From assembly GCA_016235065.1 (NCBI GenBank), contig JACRMB010000003.1, forward strand, positions 124,001-188,000: 64,000 bases of DNA. Reading direction: 5' to 3'. A program made the translations under genes and the position numbers. Positions 10,991 to 15,120 of the stretch are shown here, piece by piece. A model generated the notes under the pieces. The model saw only the letters and a program-made list of their open reading frames with translations. It was not told the DNA's origin and did not search any database. The DNA comes from Actinomycetota bacterium (lineage in GTDB: Bacteria > Actinomycetota > Thermoleophilia > BMS3ABIN01). Within the stretch, counting starts at the first letter, position 1. Each line of letters opens with the position of its first letter.

Positions 10991-11353
10991 ATGAAAGCGT
11001 CCACAAAACCCAAAAAAATCGAACGAGACCGGATCGAGCTTCTGAAAATCATCGGGCATCCCTTGAGGGTCCAGATTCTGGAGCAGCTCGAAAGTGGCGT
11101 GAAATGCGTCAGCGACTTTGACGATTTTCTGGAGGCAAGCCAGCCGAACATATCCCAGCACCTGGGTCTTCTTCGCAGGAGCGGTCTTATCGACTATTAC
11201 ATGGACGGCCGTCTGCGCTGCTATTTCCTGGTTGAACCGATTGTGCCGGATCTCCTGAAACTAATGAGAAAGCAATACGATGAAGACCTGGCGGCGCCCG
11301 CGTGCTGTCCTGTCACCAGGACAGGGAAGTACCCGGGGGCGAGAAAGCATTAA
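10991..11353 (+). CDS. ArsR-family regulator of the sulfur-redox operon
   Basis: A 120-residue winged-helix repressor with ArsR recognition helix 'SQPNISQHLGLLRRSGLI' and hairpin 'YYMDGRLRCYFLV'. It has cysteines at residue 39 (before the helix-turn-helix), 77, and a pair at 105-106 near the C-terminus. Residues 39 and 105/106 are spaced much like the two redox cysteines of persulfide sensors SqrR/BigR. Being the first gene of an SQR/DsrE operon, it may sense sulfane sulfur. That function is inference; metal sensing through the CC pair is the alternative. The ribosome-binding site is weak (GAGAG). Confidence 0.85.
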   Translation: MKASTKPKKIERDRIELLKIIGHPLRVQILEQLESGVKCVSDFDDFLEASQPNISQHLGLLRRSGLIDYYMDGRLRCYFLVEPIVPDLLKLMRKQYDEDLAAPACCPVTRTGKYPGARKH

Positions 11354-11371: not shown

Positions 11372-11803
11372 ATGAGCGATGAGAAAAAACCAGCCAAAGT
11401 CGTTTCCATAATGTGCTTTCATGACGAGATGTGTCTGGTCTTTAATGCGCTCATGACGGCGCAGAGCCTGCTCAGGTCCGGTTCGAAGGTCACCATCTTT
11501 TTCGGCTCCCGGGGCATCAACGCGGTACATAAGGACAAGATCGACCATCTGGTCTGCCTTCCGGATCAGCCTCAGGAGGTGCAGGACGCGGTTACCAAAA
11601 GGATGGAAGAGATGGACCTGCCCGAGATCAGCCTGATGATGGAGTCGCTTTATTATGAAGGAGCAACACTGTTGGCATGCCCGCTCAACCTTTCTGTGTT
11701 TGGTATGAGCGAGAGAGATCTGGTGCTTGGCGTGACCGTAGCAGACCCCGCCACCTTCTATAAAGATGTGATGATAGCGGCGGACATGAACCTGGCGTTT
11801 TAA
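11372..11803 (+). CDS. DsrE-family sulfur-carrier-like protein (first copy)
   Basis: A 143-residue alpha/beta protein of the DsrE/DsrF-like superfamily. It starts with a beta strand (VVSIMCFHDEM) and a long helix (CLVFNALMTAQSLLRSG), then 'VTIFFGSRGINAV', and ends 'YKDVMIAADMNLAF'. Relatives carry persulfides on conserved cysteines or interact with sulfur oxidoreductases. Candidate cysteines are in MCFHDEMC (near the N-terminus) and 'LLACPLN' (near residue 109). A strong GGGAGG site precedes ATG. It lies 18 bp after arsR and 55 bp before the selenoprotein gene, so it is probably co-transcribed. Confidence 0.8.
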   Translation: MSDEKKPAKVVSIMCFHDEMCLVFNALMTAQSLLRSGSKVTIFFGSRGINAVHKDKIDHLVCLPDQPQEVQDAVTKRMEEMDLPEISLMMESLYYEGATLLACPLNLSVFGMSERDLVLGVTVADPATFYKDVMIAADMNLAF

Positions 11804-11858
11804 TCCCGTAATCCTGGCCACCGCTGCTTAAAAATAAAATGAGAAAAAGGAGACAGAA

Positions 11859-13493
11859 ATGAAAGTCATCGACGAGGGCAACAAGGGCGTCGCTGAAGGA
11901 ACGCTGGTTCCATTGGATGAACTGGGCTTGCCCGCTCCCACTACCGGGGGGTTGCTCATCGTTTTCTGGAAGGGCCAGTGACAGGGCTGCCGGCGGGAGG
12001 CTCCCGCCATAAAGCGCCTGTATGAGCGCTTCTCGTCCCAAGGACTCTCGGCCGTCTACGTTGGGCCTTTCGAAACTAAGGAAACCTGCCAGGAGTGGAA
12101 GGAAGAGTACGAGCTGCCGTTTGACGTTATCCCTGACGAAGACGGGACCATATTCAAAAAGCTCAGCAATGGCTGGGTGCCTTACACCCTCCTGGTAGGG
12201 TCCGACAGCAAGGTAGTCCTGTGGGAGAGCGAGTTTGAAGAGGAGGGCTTTGCCGCTGTCGTTGAGAAGCTCTTCGAGGAGCCGTCCGAAGCGCAGGCTG
12301 AGCCTGCCGTAAGGGAAGTGCCCCGGCGGGCCGGCCAGGGATTTGGAGCGAACATCGTGATCCTTGGCGGCGGTGCCGGCGGGCTGGTTGCCGCCCATCA
12401 CCTGCGCCGCAAGCTTTCTGGCAGGGACCGGATCATCCTCATCGACCGCGCGCCCAATCATCTTTTTCAGTCCTCACTGCTGTGGCATGCGGTGGGGCAG
12501 CGCCGGCCCGATCAGATCCAGAGACCGCTTTCAGATCTGGCCCGCAAGGGCGTCGAGTTTATCAATGAGGAGGTCGTGGAAATAGACGCCTCCGCCCGGC
12601 AGGTGAGAACGAAGTCACAGGCGATCGATTTTGATTTTCTGATTGTTTCGCTTGGCGCTCAGCTGAGGCCCGACGAGGTAGAAGGCTTCGATGATATGGC
12701 CCTCAACCTATATGACCTGGAGGGTACGGCAAAGATCCATGCCGCACTGGACGCTTTTTCCGGCGGCACGGTGGGCGTGCTGGTCACCGACATGCCTTTC
12801 AAATGTCCCGCGGCGCCTTATGAGGCAGCGTTGCTGGTGGAGTCCTTCCTCCGCAAAAGGGGTGTGCGCGACCGATCGGAGATCCACATCTACACCCCCG
12901 AGCACCAGCCAATGCCGATCACTGGGCCGGCGATGGGGGATGCTATAACAAAGGTGTTGCATAAGCGCAATATCCATTACCATCCTCTCTTCACTTTCGA
13001 GAAGATGGATCCGGCCGATCGAACCATCATCAAGTCTGGCGGTGAACCGCAGAAAGTGGACCTGCTTCTCGCCATTCCTCCGCACCGGGCGCCCGAGGTA
13101 GTGCGCTCCTCCGGGCTTATCGGTTCGTCCGGGTGGATGCACACAGACCCGCACACGATGGAAACGGAGCATGAAGGCATATACGCCATCGGCGACGTCA
13201 ACAGCATCAGGCTGGCTAACGGCAAGAACCTCCCCATGGCAGGCGTTTTCGCCCATTACGAGGCCGGGGTTGTCGCCGAGCGGATCCTCGCCGAACTCGA
13301 AGGACGGCCGCCGGCAGCGACATTCAACGGCAAGGGCTACTGCTGGCTGGAGATGGGCGACGGCAAGGCCGGCATAGCCAGCGGCGACTTCTATGCCGAA
13401 CCCGAACCGGCCGTGCGGATGTATCCGCCGATGCACCCATGGCACTGGGGCAAGGTCCTGTTCGAGAAGTGGTGGCTGAGGCACTGGTTTTAA
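11859..13493 (+). CDS. Selenocysteine-containing TlpA-like thioredoxin domain fused to an SQR-like FAD oxidoreductase (TGA at 11979-11981 = Sec41)
   Basis: Read through one in-frame TGA, this is a 544-residue protein. Residues 1 to about 150 form a thioredoxin-like domain: the active site FWKGQUQGCRREAP aligns position by position with the TlpA/ResA pattern FWASWCGPCRKEMP, so U41 replaces the first cysteine and C44 is the second. A cis-proline-type loop 'GWVPYTLLV' follows. From about residue 165 there is a two-dinucleotide-binding flavoprotein with 'VILGGGAGGLVAA', the SQR-type 'KCPAAPYEAALL' (C316) and 'GIYAIGDVNSI'. AGGAG precedes ATG 11859, and a stem-loop follows the TGA. The likely job is sulfide or persulfide oxidation coupled to a selenothiol relay. 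Plain gene calling would start at GTG 12177 and lose the Sec domain. TGA is an ordinary stop elsewhere here, and no sel gene lies in the window. Confidence 0.87.
11982..12020 (+). promoter_or_regulatory. Candidate bacterial SECIS element
   Basis: Ten bases after the TGA a 7-bp perfect stem GGCGGGA (11992-11998)/TCCCGCC (12002-12008) closes a GGC triloop. Below it, CAGG+GC (11982-11987) can pair with GC+CCTG (12014-12020) across an internal loop. The apical loop starts 17 bases after the TGA with a G at its first position. This fits the general bacterial SECIS description (a short GC-rich hairpin inside the coding region, with a G at the start of the apical loop). Structure was drawn by eye. 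Confidence 0.75.
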
Positions 13494-13564: not shown

Positions 13565-13885
13565 GTGAAGTTTGGAATCATCATAAACTCCAATGATCCG
13601 GAGACCGTCTGGAATGCCTTCCGGTTCGGGCTCAAGCCGCTCACCAAGGGCGATGAGGTGCGGGTGTTTCTGACCGGAAGAGGAGTAGAGGCGGAGCAGC
13701 TTGATACGGAACAGTTTGCAGTTACCCAGATGATGACGGATTTTATGGATCTCGGCGGCTCTGTTCTTTGTTGTGGCAGTTGTGCGGAAAAAATACGGGG
13801 GATGACGCCCAAGATCTGTGCGATAGGTGGAATGAATGACATGTACGAGATCGTTGCGGATTGTGACAGGGTGCTGACGTTCTGA
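13565..13885 (+). CDS. DsrE-family protein (second copy), small
   Basis: A 106-residue DsrE-like protein: 'KFGIIINSNDPETVWNAFRFG', 'GDEVRVFLTGRGVEAEQLDTE', 'GGSVLCCGSCAEKIRG' and the C-terminus 'ADCDRVLTF'. This is the compact form common in anaerobes, with the CCGSC cluster as the likely persulfide-carrying site. GTG 13565 has a strong AGGAGG site. It sits between the two SQR-like flavoproteins, which supports a role in accepting or delivering sulfane sulfur. The physiological partner is not known. Confidence 0.85.
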   Translation: MKFGIIINSNDPETVWNAFRFGLKPLTKGDEVRVFLTGRGVEAEQLDTEQFAVTQMMTDFMDLGGSVLCCGSCAEKIRGMTPKICAIGGMNDMYEIVADCDRVLTF

Positions 13886-13968
13886 TCCGTTACAGCCAGG
13901 GGCTCCATAAAGATTCAGATTAATCACGGGATCGGCAGCAATCATATGAACTAGTGGAGGTGGCGTTG

Positions 13969-15120
13969 ATGTCAGGCAAGACTGTGATGGTGCTGGGCGG
14001 AGGGATCGGCGGGATCGTCGCCGCGAACAAGCTGCACCACCTGCTTCGTGACGACAAGGTGATCGTGGTCGACAAGAGCCCGAGGCACAGCTTCACCGGC
14101 TCGTACATGTGGATTTTAAATGGCACCAGGGTGGGCTCGCAGGTCGAGAAGGATCTCTCAGTCCTCGATAAGAAGGGAATCGAGTTCGTGCAGGGTGAGG
14201 TCTCCGGCATCGACGCTTCTGCCGGCAAGGTGACCGTGGGTGGTAAGGATATGGGTTATGACCACCTGGTGGTATCCCTGGGCGCGGACCTCGATCCGGG
14301 CATGATCCCGGGCCTTTCCCGCTCCGGCATAAACATCTATTCCGTGGACGGCCTCACGGAAGCCCACCAGGAACTGGCGAAGTTCCAGGGTGGCCGCATC
14401 GTCATCGCCATCTGCCGCATGCCCTACAAATGCCCCGCCGCCCCCTACGAGGCGGCGATGATCATCGACCAGATGCTTAAGAAGACGGGAGTGCGCGAAA
14501 AGACCGAGATTGAGATCGTGACTTGGGAGCCGCAGCCGATGCCGGTCGCTGGTCCGGTGATGGGACAGGCAGTCCTGTCGATGATGGAACCGGCCGGTAT
14601 CGCCTACAGGCCCAATACCACGATCGCCTCGGCCGATCCCGATACGAAACAGTTGTTGCTGGAGGGTGGAGAGGCGGTTCCCTACGACCTGCTTCTATAC
14701 GTGCCGCCGCACAAGTGCGCCCAGGTCATCAAGGACTCAGGCCTCACCGGCGAAGGCGGCTGGGTGCCCGTGGATCCCGGAAGGCTGACTACCAGCCATG
14801 AGAATCTCTACGTCATCGGTGACGCCGCGGCGATCAAGCTTCCCAACGGCAAGATGCTCCCCAAGGCGGGTGTCTTCGCCCATAAGCACGCTGAGACTGT
14901 AGCCCACGAGATAGCCGCGACTATCAAGGGTTCAGCTCAGCCAAAGCCATATGATGGACTCGGATTCTGTTTTCTGGAAGTCGGCGATGGGACCGCAGGC
15001 TATGCAAAAGGCAATTTCTACGCCGAACCGGATCCGGCCATCCAGGCGCGCAAGCCGAACAAGATGCTCCACTGGCAGAAAGTAGCCTTTGAGAAGTACT
15101 GGTTCTGGAAGTATTTCTAG
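13969..15120 (+). CDS. Sulfide:quinone oxidoreductase-like FAD enzyme (stand-alone)
   Basis: A 383-residue flavoprotein with N-terminal 'VMVLGGGIGGIVAANKL', central 'MPYKCPAAPYEAAMI' (C155) and 'NLYVIGDAAAIKLPNGK'. The C-terminus is aromatic (KYWFWKYF), as expected for a monotopic membrane-associated SQR. It resembles the flavoprotein half of the upstream selenoprotein, so the two are probably duplicates. SQRs oxidise sulfide to sulfane sulfur and pass electrons to quinone; a related polysulfide or NADH role is possible. ATG 13969 is preceded by GGAGG eight bases upstream. It is the last gene of the operon. Confidence 0.85.
   Translation: MSGKTVMVLGGGIGGIVAANKLHHLLRDDKVIVVDKSPRHSFTGSYMWILNGTRVGSQVEKDLSVLDKKGIEFVQGEVSGIDASAGKVTVGGKDMGYDHLVVSLGADLDPGMIPGLSRSGINIYSVDGLTEAHQELAKFQGGRIVIAICRMPYKCPAAPYEAAMIIDQMLKKTGVREKTEIEIVTWEPQPMPVAGPVMGQAVLSMMEPAGIAYRPNTTIASADPDTKQLLLEGGEAVPYDLLLYVPPHKCAQVIKDSGLTGEGGWVPVDPGRLTTSHENLYVIGDAAAIKLPNGKMLPKAGVFAHKHAETVAHEIAATIKGSAQPKPYDGLGFCFLEVGDGTAGYAKGNFYAEPDPAIQARKPNKMLHWQKVAFEKYWFWKYF

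Follow-up and report, generated by a model that had tools for sequence, protein, structure and literature searches.

A 2026 catalogue of prokaryotic selenocysteine (Sec) proteins holds 119 families and subfamilies, among them thioredoxin-fold families with a UxxC motif and one sulfide:quinone oxidoreductase (SQR), NF049943, with an HxxU motif (PMC13188914). The selenoprotein subtype of NF049943, a type III sulfide quinone reductase, comes from deep-Sep (Xiao and Zhang 2025; PMC12013277). In the Prx-like thiol:disulfide oxidoreductase, thiol-disulfide isomerase-like and Redoxin selenoproteins, Sec takes the first position of UxxC on a thioredoxin fold, as in the protein described here, but these are families of their own for which no flavoprotein fusion has been described (PMC13188914, Table 1). 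ResA and TlpA are exported or membrane-tethered proteins with a Cys-Cys pair, and human-type SQR and flavocytochrome c sulfide dehydrogenase (FCSD) have neither an N-terminal thioredoxin-fold domain nor Sec.

We analyzed a window of 64,000 nt (GCA_016235065.1, contig JACRMB010000003.1, forward strand, 124,001-188,000) from an Actinomycetota bacterium (Thermoleophilia; BMS3ABIN01), in which a TlpA/ResA-type domain with a predicted Sec and an SQR-like flavoprotein are joined in one reading frame. The parts of this gene, in window positions, are the following.

11847..11852, + strand: ribosome-binding site AAGGAG before ATG 11859, with a similar site ahead of the ATG in 15/15 orthologues
11859..13493, + strand: complete coding sequence of the Sec-TlpA/SQR-like fusion, 544 aa with the TGA read as Sec
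11901..12278, + strand: TlpA/ResA-type thioredoxin-fold domain, residues ~15-140 (Pfam, PDB sequence and fold matches)
11979..11981, + strand: predicted selenocysteine U41 (in-frame TGA), with TGA at 15/15 orthologous loci
11988..11990, + strand: C44, the resolving cysteine of UxxC, invariant
12087..12089, + strand: C77, third cysteine of the N-terminal domain (ETCQEW), invariant in 15/15 orthologues
12351..13427, + strand: SQR/FCSD-type FAD flavoprotein domain, residues 165-523 (Pfam and PDB matches)
12804..12806, + strand: C316, first redox cysteine (FKCPAAPYEAA), aligned with PVKCAGAP of human SQR, invariant
13341..13343, + strand: C495, second redox cysteine (GYCWLEMG), aligned with SCPLVTG of human SQR, invariant

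The frame holds a single TGA, codon 41 of 545, and ends at a TAA (13491-13493); read through, the product begins with MKVIDEG, carries FWKGQ-U-QGCRREAP at its core and ends with HWF. As the sequence-only reading had claimed, the TGA lies exactly at the first Cys of a ResA/TlpA-type CxxC (here UQGC), by both frame and alignment, and the proposed ribosome-binding site at the ATG is present. That reading was also right that the frame stays open beyond the TGA, but the 504 codons it counted there are 503 sense codons. Inspection of the other TGA-interrupted frames of the window yielded no second candidate.

Several lines of evidence place the N-terminal domain with ResA and TlpA, as had been proposed from the letters of the sequence. 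Pfam matches it to AhpC-TSA (1e-12, residues 31-119) and to Redoxin, and among solved structures ResA is matched by sequence (2e-8). Residues 1-150 are predicted (pLDDT 83) to adopt a thioredoxin fold in which the UxxC occupies 41-44 and a helix spans 42-59; the top fold matches of this model are of ResA type, including ResA and a Bacillus ResA-like protein. The UxxC opens the first helix, and the next strand is preceded by a conserved VP. The likeness extends from the fold to the active-site surroundings (FWxxxCxxCRxEAP), whereas the Sec-Cys pair, the attached SQR and the lack of a signal sequence set the fusion apart. We found neither a signal peptide nor an N-terminal hydrophobic segment in the fusion sequence, in which the most hydrophobic 19-mer begins at residue 161, within the FAD motif; the N-terminal domain is probably cytoplasmic.

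The C-terminal half is a complete flavoprotein of the SQR/FCSD type, as Pfam, NCBIfam and PDB matches agree in confirming. Pfam identifies Pyr_redox_2 (1e-19) and FCSD_central (8.5e-8), the PDB matches are to human SQR (2e-30) and FCSD (9e-25), and the half contains an FAD-binding GxGxxG motif. It shares with human-type SQR and FCSD the FAD domain and both aligned redox cysteines, and the human SQR cysteines aligned with C316 and C495 are that enzyme's redox pair. The segment around C316 has no GxGxxG motif in its sequence, which is consistent with an enzyme of the SQR type and not with one that uses NAD(P)H. At its C-terminus, where an amphipathic membrane anchor may be expected of an SQR/FCSD flavoprotein, the protein has a conserved aromatic-rich tail, HWGKVLFEKWWLRHWF, for which a helix at 527-543 is predicted in the low-confidence full-length model (pLDDT 50, from a shallow alignment). 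We infer the label "sulfide-oxidizing" from homology and from the neighboring genes.

The nearest described relative, NF049943, is itself an SQR-like flavoprotein with a selenoprotein subtype, and no NCBIfam model matches the C-terminal half better. Its model covers a flavoprotein only, with 406 positions matching residues 165-523 of the fusion and no thioredoxin domain. With 251.5 bits against a cut-off of 525, the fusion is ruled out as a member. The position of Sec also differs: in NF049943 it lies in the flavoprotein (HxxU), apparently where the fusion has C495, while the Sec of the fusion lies in the added N-terminal domain. The NF049943 members that we found in the class have Cys and no in-frame TGA. 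As the sole HxxC of the Cys-type members examined (L118, L119, L121 and others) is HANC, which aligns with C495, the Sec of NF049943 would replace the second flavin-side cysteine; this alignment suggests that HxxU is at the catalytic flavin-side cysteine. No model in NCBIfam release 20 spans both halves of the fusion, and a UxxC-SQR fusion is not among the 119 catalogue families (PMC13188914), in a search that covered open literature. The earlier suggestion of an undescribed family therefore stands as far as the catalogue goes, but a link between SQR and selenium is not wholly new, because NF049943 had already been described. Measured against the open catalogues searched, the fusion is known selenoprotein biology in a new domain architecture.

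Orthologues of the fusion were found at 15 loci in 14 genomes from five genera of one family, with 68-95% identity over the protein. In each of the 15 the frame contains TGA once only, always at one and the same alignment position, and the protein is closely similar before and after it; at this position no locus shows a frameshift, a codon for Cys or some unrelated residue. Because single TGA and flanking protein are shared by 15 orthologous loci, the position of the TGA is not due to chance. U41, C44, C77, C316 and C495 are all invariant among them. The pN/pS ratio is 0.216 over codons 1-40, 0.200 over codons 59-150 and 0.224 over the flavoprotein; at about 0.2 on both sides, it indicates that protein-level selection is unchanged at the TGA.

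With a profile of the N-terminal domain we searched two overlapping samples, 399 genomes from the class and 397 from the phylum, ~740 genomes together. Matches at 1e-80 or better came from the one family only, always fused and always with TGA. The next matches, near 1e-11, were TlpA/ResA-like proteins on their own, with Cys in nearly all of them; other TGA-containing candidates among the TlpA matches were rejected, being mostly normal gene ends. When 84,980 species genomes were scanned by pattern, with a reach limited to close relatives, seven loci were returned, all in metagenome-assembled genomes named Thermoleophilia or Actinomycetes bacterium. The Cys-containing homologues that the sequence-only reading had proposed to look for thus exist for the N-terminal half, as standalone TlpA/ResA-like proteins with Cys at the position of the TGA. 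A Cys version of the fusion itself was found neither in the ~740 class and phylum genomes nor among the close relatives reached by the 84,980-genome scan, and no plasmid record covered 80% of the fusion query. As the searches found it nowhere else, the fusion seems to have been born in, or to be limited to, an Actinomycetota lineage. In a FastTree phylogeny of SQR domains it forms one clade, adjoining a standalone SQR from another family of the same class (L064) and apart from the NF049943 group and from the group of SQR2, a second SQR-like protein of the window. Another family of the class holds a standalone Prx-like protein whose frame contains a TGA (FNRGFM-U-PFC; L100, G027:C84:4105-4320) and which is probably of the known UxxC Prx-like selenoprotein type.

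The machinery for reading UGA as Sec is complete in the host. Its genome (98.9% complete) encodes a tRNA-Sec (67.8 bits, above the Rfam cut-off) that is adjoined by selA (575 bits) and selB (359 bits), as well as a selD (370 bits) that itself contains Sec; the full set of selA, selB, selC and selD, named beforehand as what to look for, was found. selA is present in 19/19 genomes of the family examined, five of them without a detected fusion. Just downstream of the TGA we found a region under RNA-level constraint and, within it, a hairpin.

11982..12032, + strand: 17 codons under RNA-level constraint (pS 0.20), holding the SECIS element
11992..12008, + strand: SECIS apical hairpin GGCGGGA-GGC-UCCCGCC, 7 bp, with the GGC loop at 11999-12001, 17 nt after the TGA

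In these 17 codons pS is 0.20, versus 0.68 before and 0.66 after them in the flanking parts of the N-terminal domain. The hairpin region has a folding energy of -22.8 kcal/mol (z = -2.5), and across eight distinct sequences 98% of cells are paired, versus 41-57% with the partner slid. Two pairs vary between G-C and G-U, and one changes from G-C to A-U in a compensatory manner (relative locus L030), a single event that 72 of 500 shuffles reached. As evidence for a SECIS, the synonymous constraint outweighs this lone event, which is weak by itself. Described rules for bacterial SECIS elements call for a loop of 3-9 nt with G in its first two positions, a stem of 4-16 bp, a distance of 16-37 nt from the UGA and an energy of at most -7.5 kcal/mol (PMC13188914), all of which agree with the 3-nt GGC loop, 7 bp, 17 nt and -22.8 kcal/mol found here. 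The hairpins of two other selenoproteins of the same genome have matching geometry.

G000:C2:52350-53618: Sec formate dehydrogenase (L112), loop GGUCU
G000:C3:16902-17834: SelD (L018), loop GUC

All three loops lie at equal distance, starting at nucleotide 21-22 with the T of the TGA as nucleotide 1. A search of the window with Rfam gave no SECIS match, which is not counter-evidence because the hairpin was tested directly. Together, the aligned TGA, the host genes and the constrained hairpin strongly support decoding of UGA 11979 as Sec by the cell's SelABCD/tRNA-Sec, guided by the downstream SECIS hairpin, and we regard the existence of the selenoprotein fusion itself as nearly certain.

The fusion lies among genes that point to sulfur species.

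10991..11353, + strand: ArsR-family regulator (Pfam)
11372..11803, + strand: DsrE2-like gene (Pfam DrsE_2), upstream of the fusion and beside it in 6/13 loci examined
13565..13885, + strand: DsrE/DsrF-like gene, downstream of the fusion (Pfam)
13954..15120, + strand: SQR2, a second SQR-like flavoprotein, ~43% identical to the flavoprotein half of the fusion

SQR2 has neither a thioredoxin domain nor Sec. All 13 loci examined have an ArsR-type gene ahead of the fusion, and in six of these a fusion of ArsR with rhodanese stands directly upstream (L067 6264-6959, L066 4510-5181, L069 9477-10160, L071 3193-3876, L072 8504-9181 and L073 5557-6234), a regulator that, from its domains, is likely to sense sulfane sulfur. 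The DsrE2-like and DsrE genes do not adjoin the fusion in every relative. At the same chromosomal place, between NDP-sugar and HtpX-like genes, one genome has SQR2 without the fusion (G004, locus L062) and another the fusion without SQR2 (G005, locus L053); since each keeps one part, the sulfur genes appear to be gained and lost as a module. Two members of the family, G004 and G009, have selA and SQR2 and no detected fusion, and the fusion is therefore dispensable. Elsewhere in the host genome there is a dsr cluster.

L116 4812-15255 (G000:C10, ~178.8-189.3 kb): dsrE, dsrF, dsrH, dsrL-like, dsrB, dsrA and dsrC

Its dsrA scores 555 bits, and the cluster also holds genes that resemble dsrP, dsrO, dsrJ, dsrK and dsrM by order and size. 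A small protein beside dsrB resembles DsrD by eye and has no Pfam or NCBIfam match. Dsr-bearing Thermoleophilia have been described as likely, in the main, to reduce sulfate or sulfite; Actinomycetota that work in both directions, or that possess dsrEFH, have been described as well (PMC10591310). The DsrE-family genes, SQR2 and the ArsR-rhodanese neighbors, with the dsrA, dsrC, dsrEFH and dsrL-like genes of the host, place the fusion in a sulfur-handling context.

Judged by homology, the protein is most likely a sulfide:quinone oxidoreductase with a seleno-domain that handles the persulfide product. With its C316/C495 pair the flavoprotein would oxidize sulfide at FAD, electrons would go to quinone, and the sulfane sulfur would stay as a persulfide on C316 or C495. 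The tethered selenolate, with C44, would then take up or resolve the persulfide, and sulfur or reducing equivalents would be handed to partners, for example the DsrE-family proteins encoded nearby and the DsrEFH-DsrC relay. The use of Sec would count at this step because, at sulfane sulfur, a selenolate outpaces a thiolate both as nucleophile and as leaving group. Moderate confidence attaches to the statement as a whole, a selenoprotein fusion with sulfide oxidation and a seleno-relay; for the catalytic scheme taken separately, sulfide oxidation with the persulfide handled by the seleno-domain, we see the chances as evenly balanced.

Each part of this reading has its alternatives. The TGA could be an ordinary stop, leaving a short peptide of the N-terminal domain and an internally started SQR, or a decaying gene. 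Gene callers, which stop at a TGA, would indeed split the gene at the position of GTG 12177, as the sequence-only reading had foreseen, and 11 of the 15 orthologues have a GTG there. The other four do not, however, and conserved thioredoxin-fold residues are already encoded ahead of it, so GTG 12177 is ruled out as the true start; more generally, whatever the alternative start, the stretch from the TGA up to it encodes conserved protein. With the one TGA kept at the Cys position in 15/15 orthologues, purifying selection even across the frame, synonymous constraint confined to the SECIS region and a complete Sec machinery, we reject a stop or pseudogene as extremely improbable. Standard annotation would lose the N-terminal part bearing the Sec center at all 15 loci.

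For the chemistry, the main rival of sulfide oxidation is operation in the reducing direction, in which the flavoprotein would be supplied with electrons by reduced quinone or some other donor and would feed them to the Sec-Cys pair, so that persulfides, polysulfides or protein disulfides are reduced in a thioredoxin-reductase-like or persulfide-reductase role. A cytoplasmic UxxC thioredoxin-fold domain is normally a reductant, and the fusion has no signal peptide; the host has dsrAB and belongs to a lineage inferred to be mainly sulfate- or sulfite-reducing (PMC10591310); and there are weak NCBIfam matches to CoA-disulfide reductase. Yet where reductases form their NAD(P)H site, the fusion bears an SQR-type cysteine loop, and the nearest solved relatives are SQRs and FCSD, with both SQR cysteines kept, so that we consider the reducing direction unlikely, if still a serious competitor. 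Less probable again is a protective or peroxide/thiol-repair module of peroxiredoxin-like type that is tethered to the SQR and transfers no sulfur. The AhpC-TSA and Redoxin matches in Pfam would fit such a module, as would the UxxC of known Sec-containing Prx-like thiol:disulfide oxidoreductases (PMC13188914, Table 1), but the best sequence and fold matches are to ResA/TlpA instead of peroxiredoxins, and the regulators and neighbors indicate sulfur species instead of peroxide.

The sulfide-oxidizing reading, carried to its end, is of a seleno-sulfur relay in one polypeptide, in which persulfide formed at the SQR flavin would pass to the tethered selenolate, through a Se-S sulfane intermediate, and feed the Dsr pathway; we put this forward tentatively. 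If true, it would place a selenoenzyme directly in dissimilatory sulfide metabolism. The fusion puts Sec beside a probable sulfide-oxidizing flavin in bacteria with a dsr pathway, and with Sec in this position, the question of why cells pay for Sec over Cys becomes testable in sulfane-sulfur chemistry.
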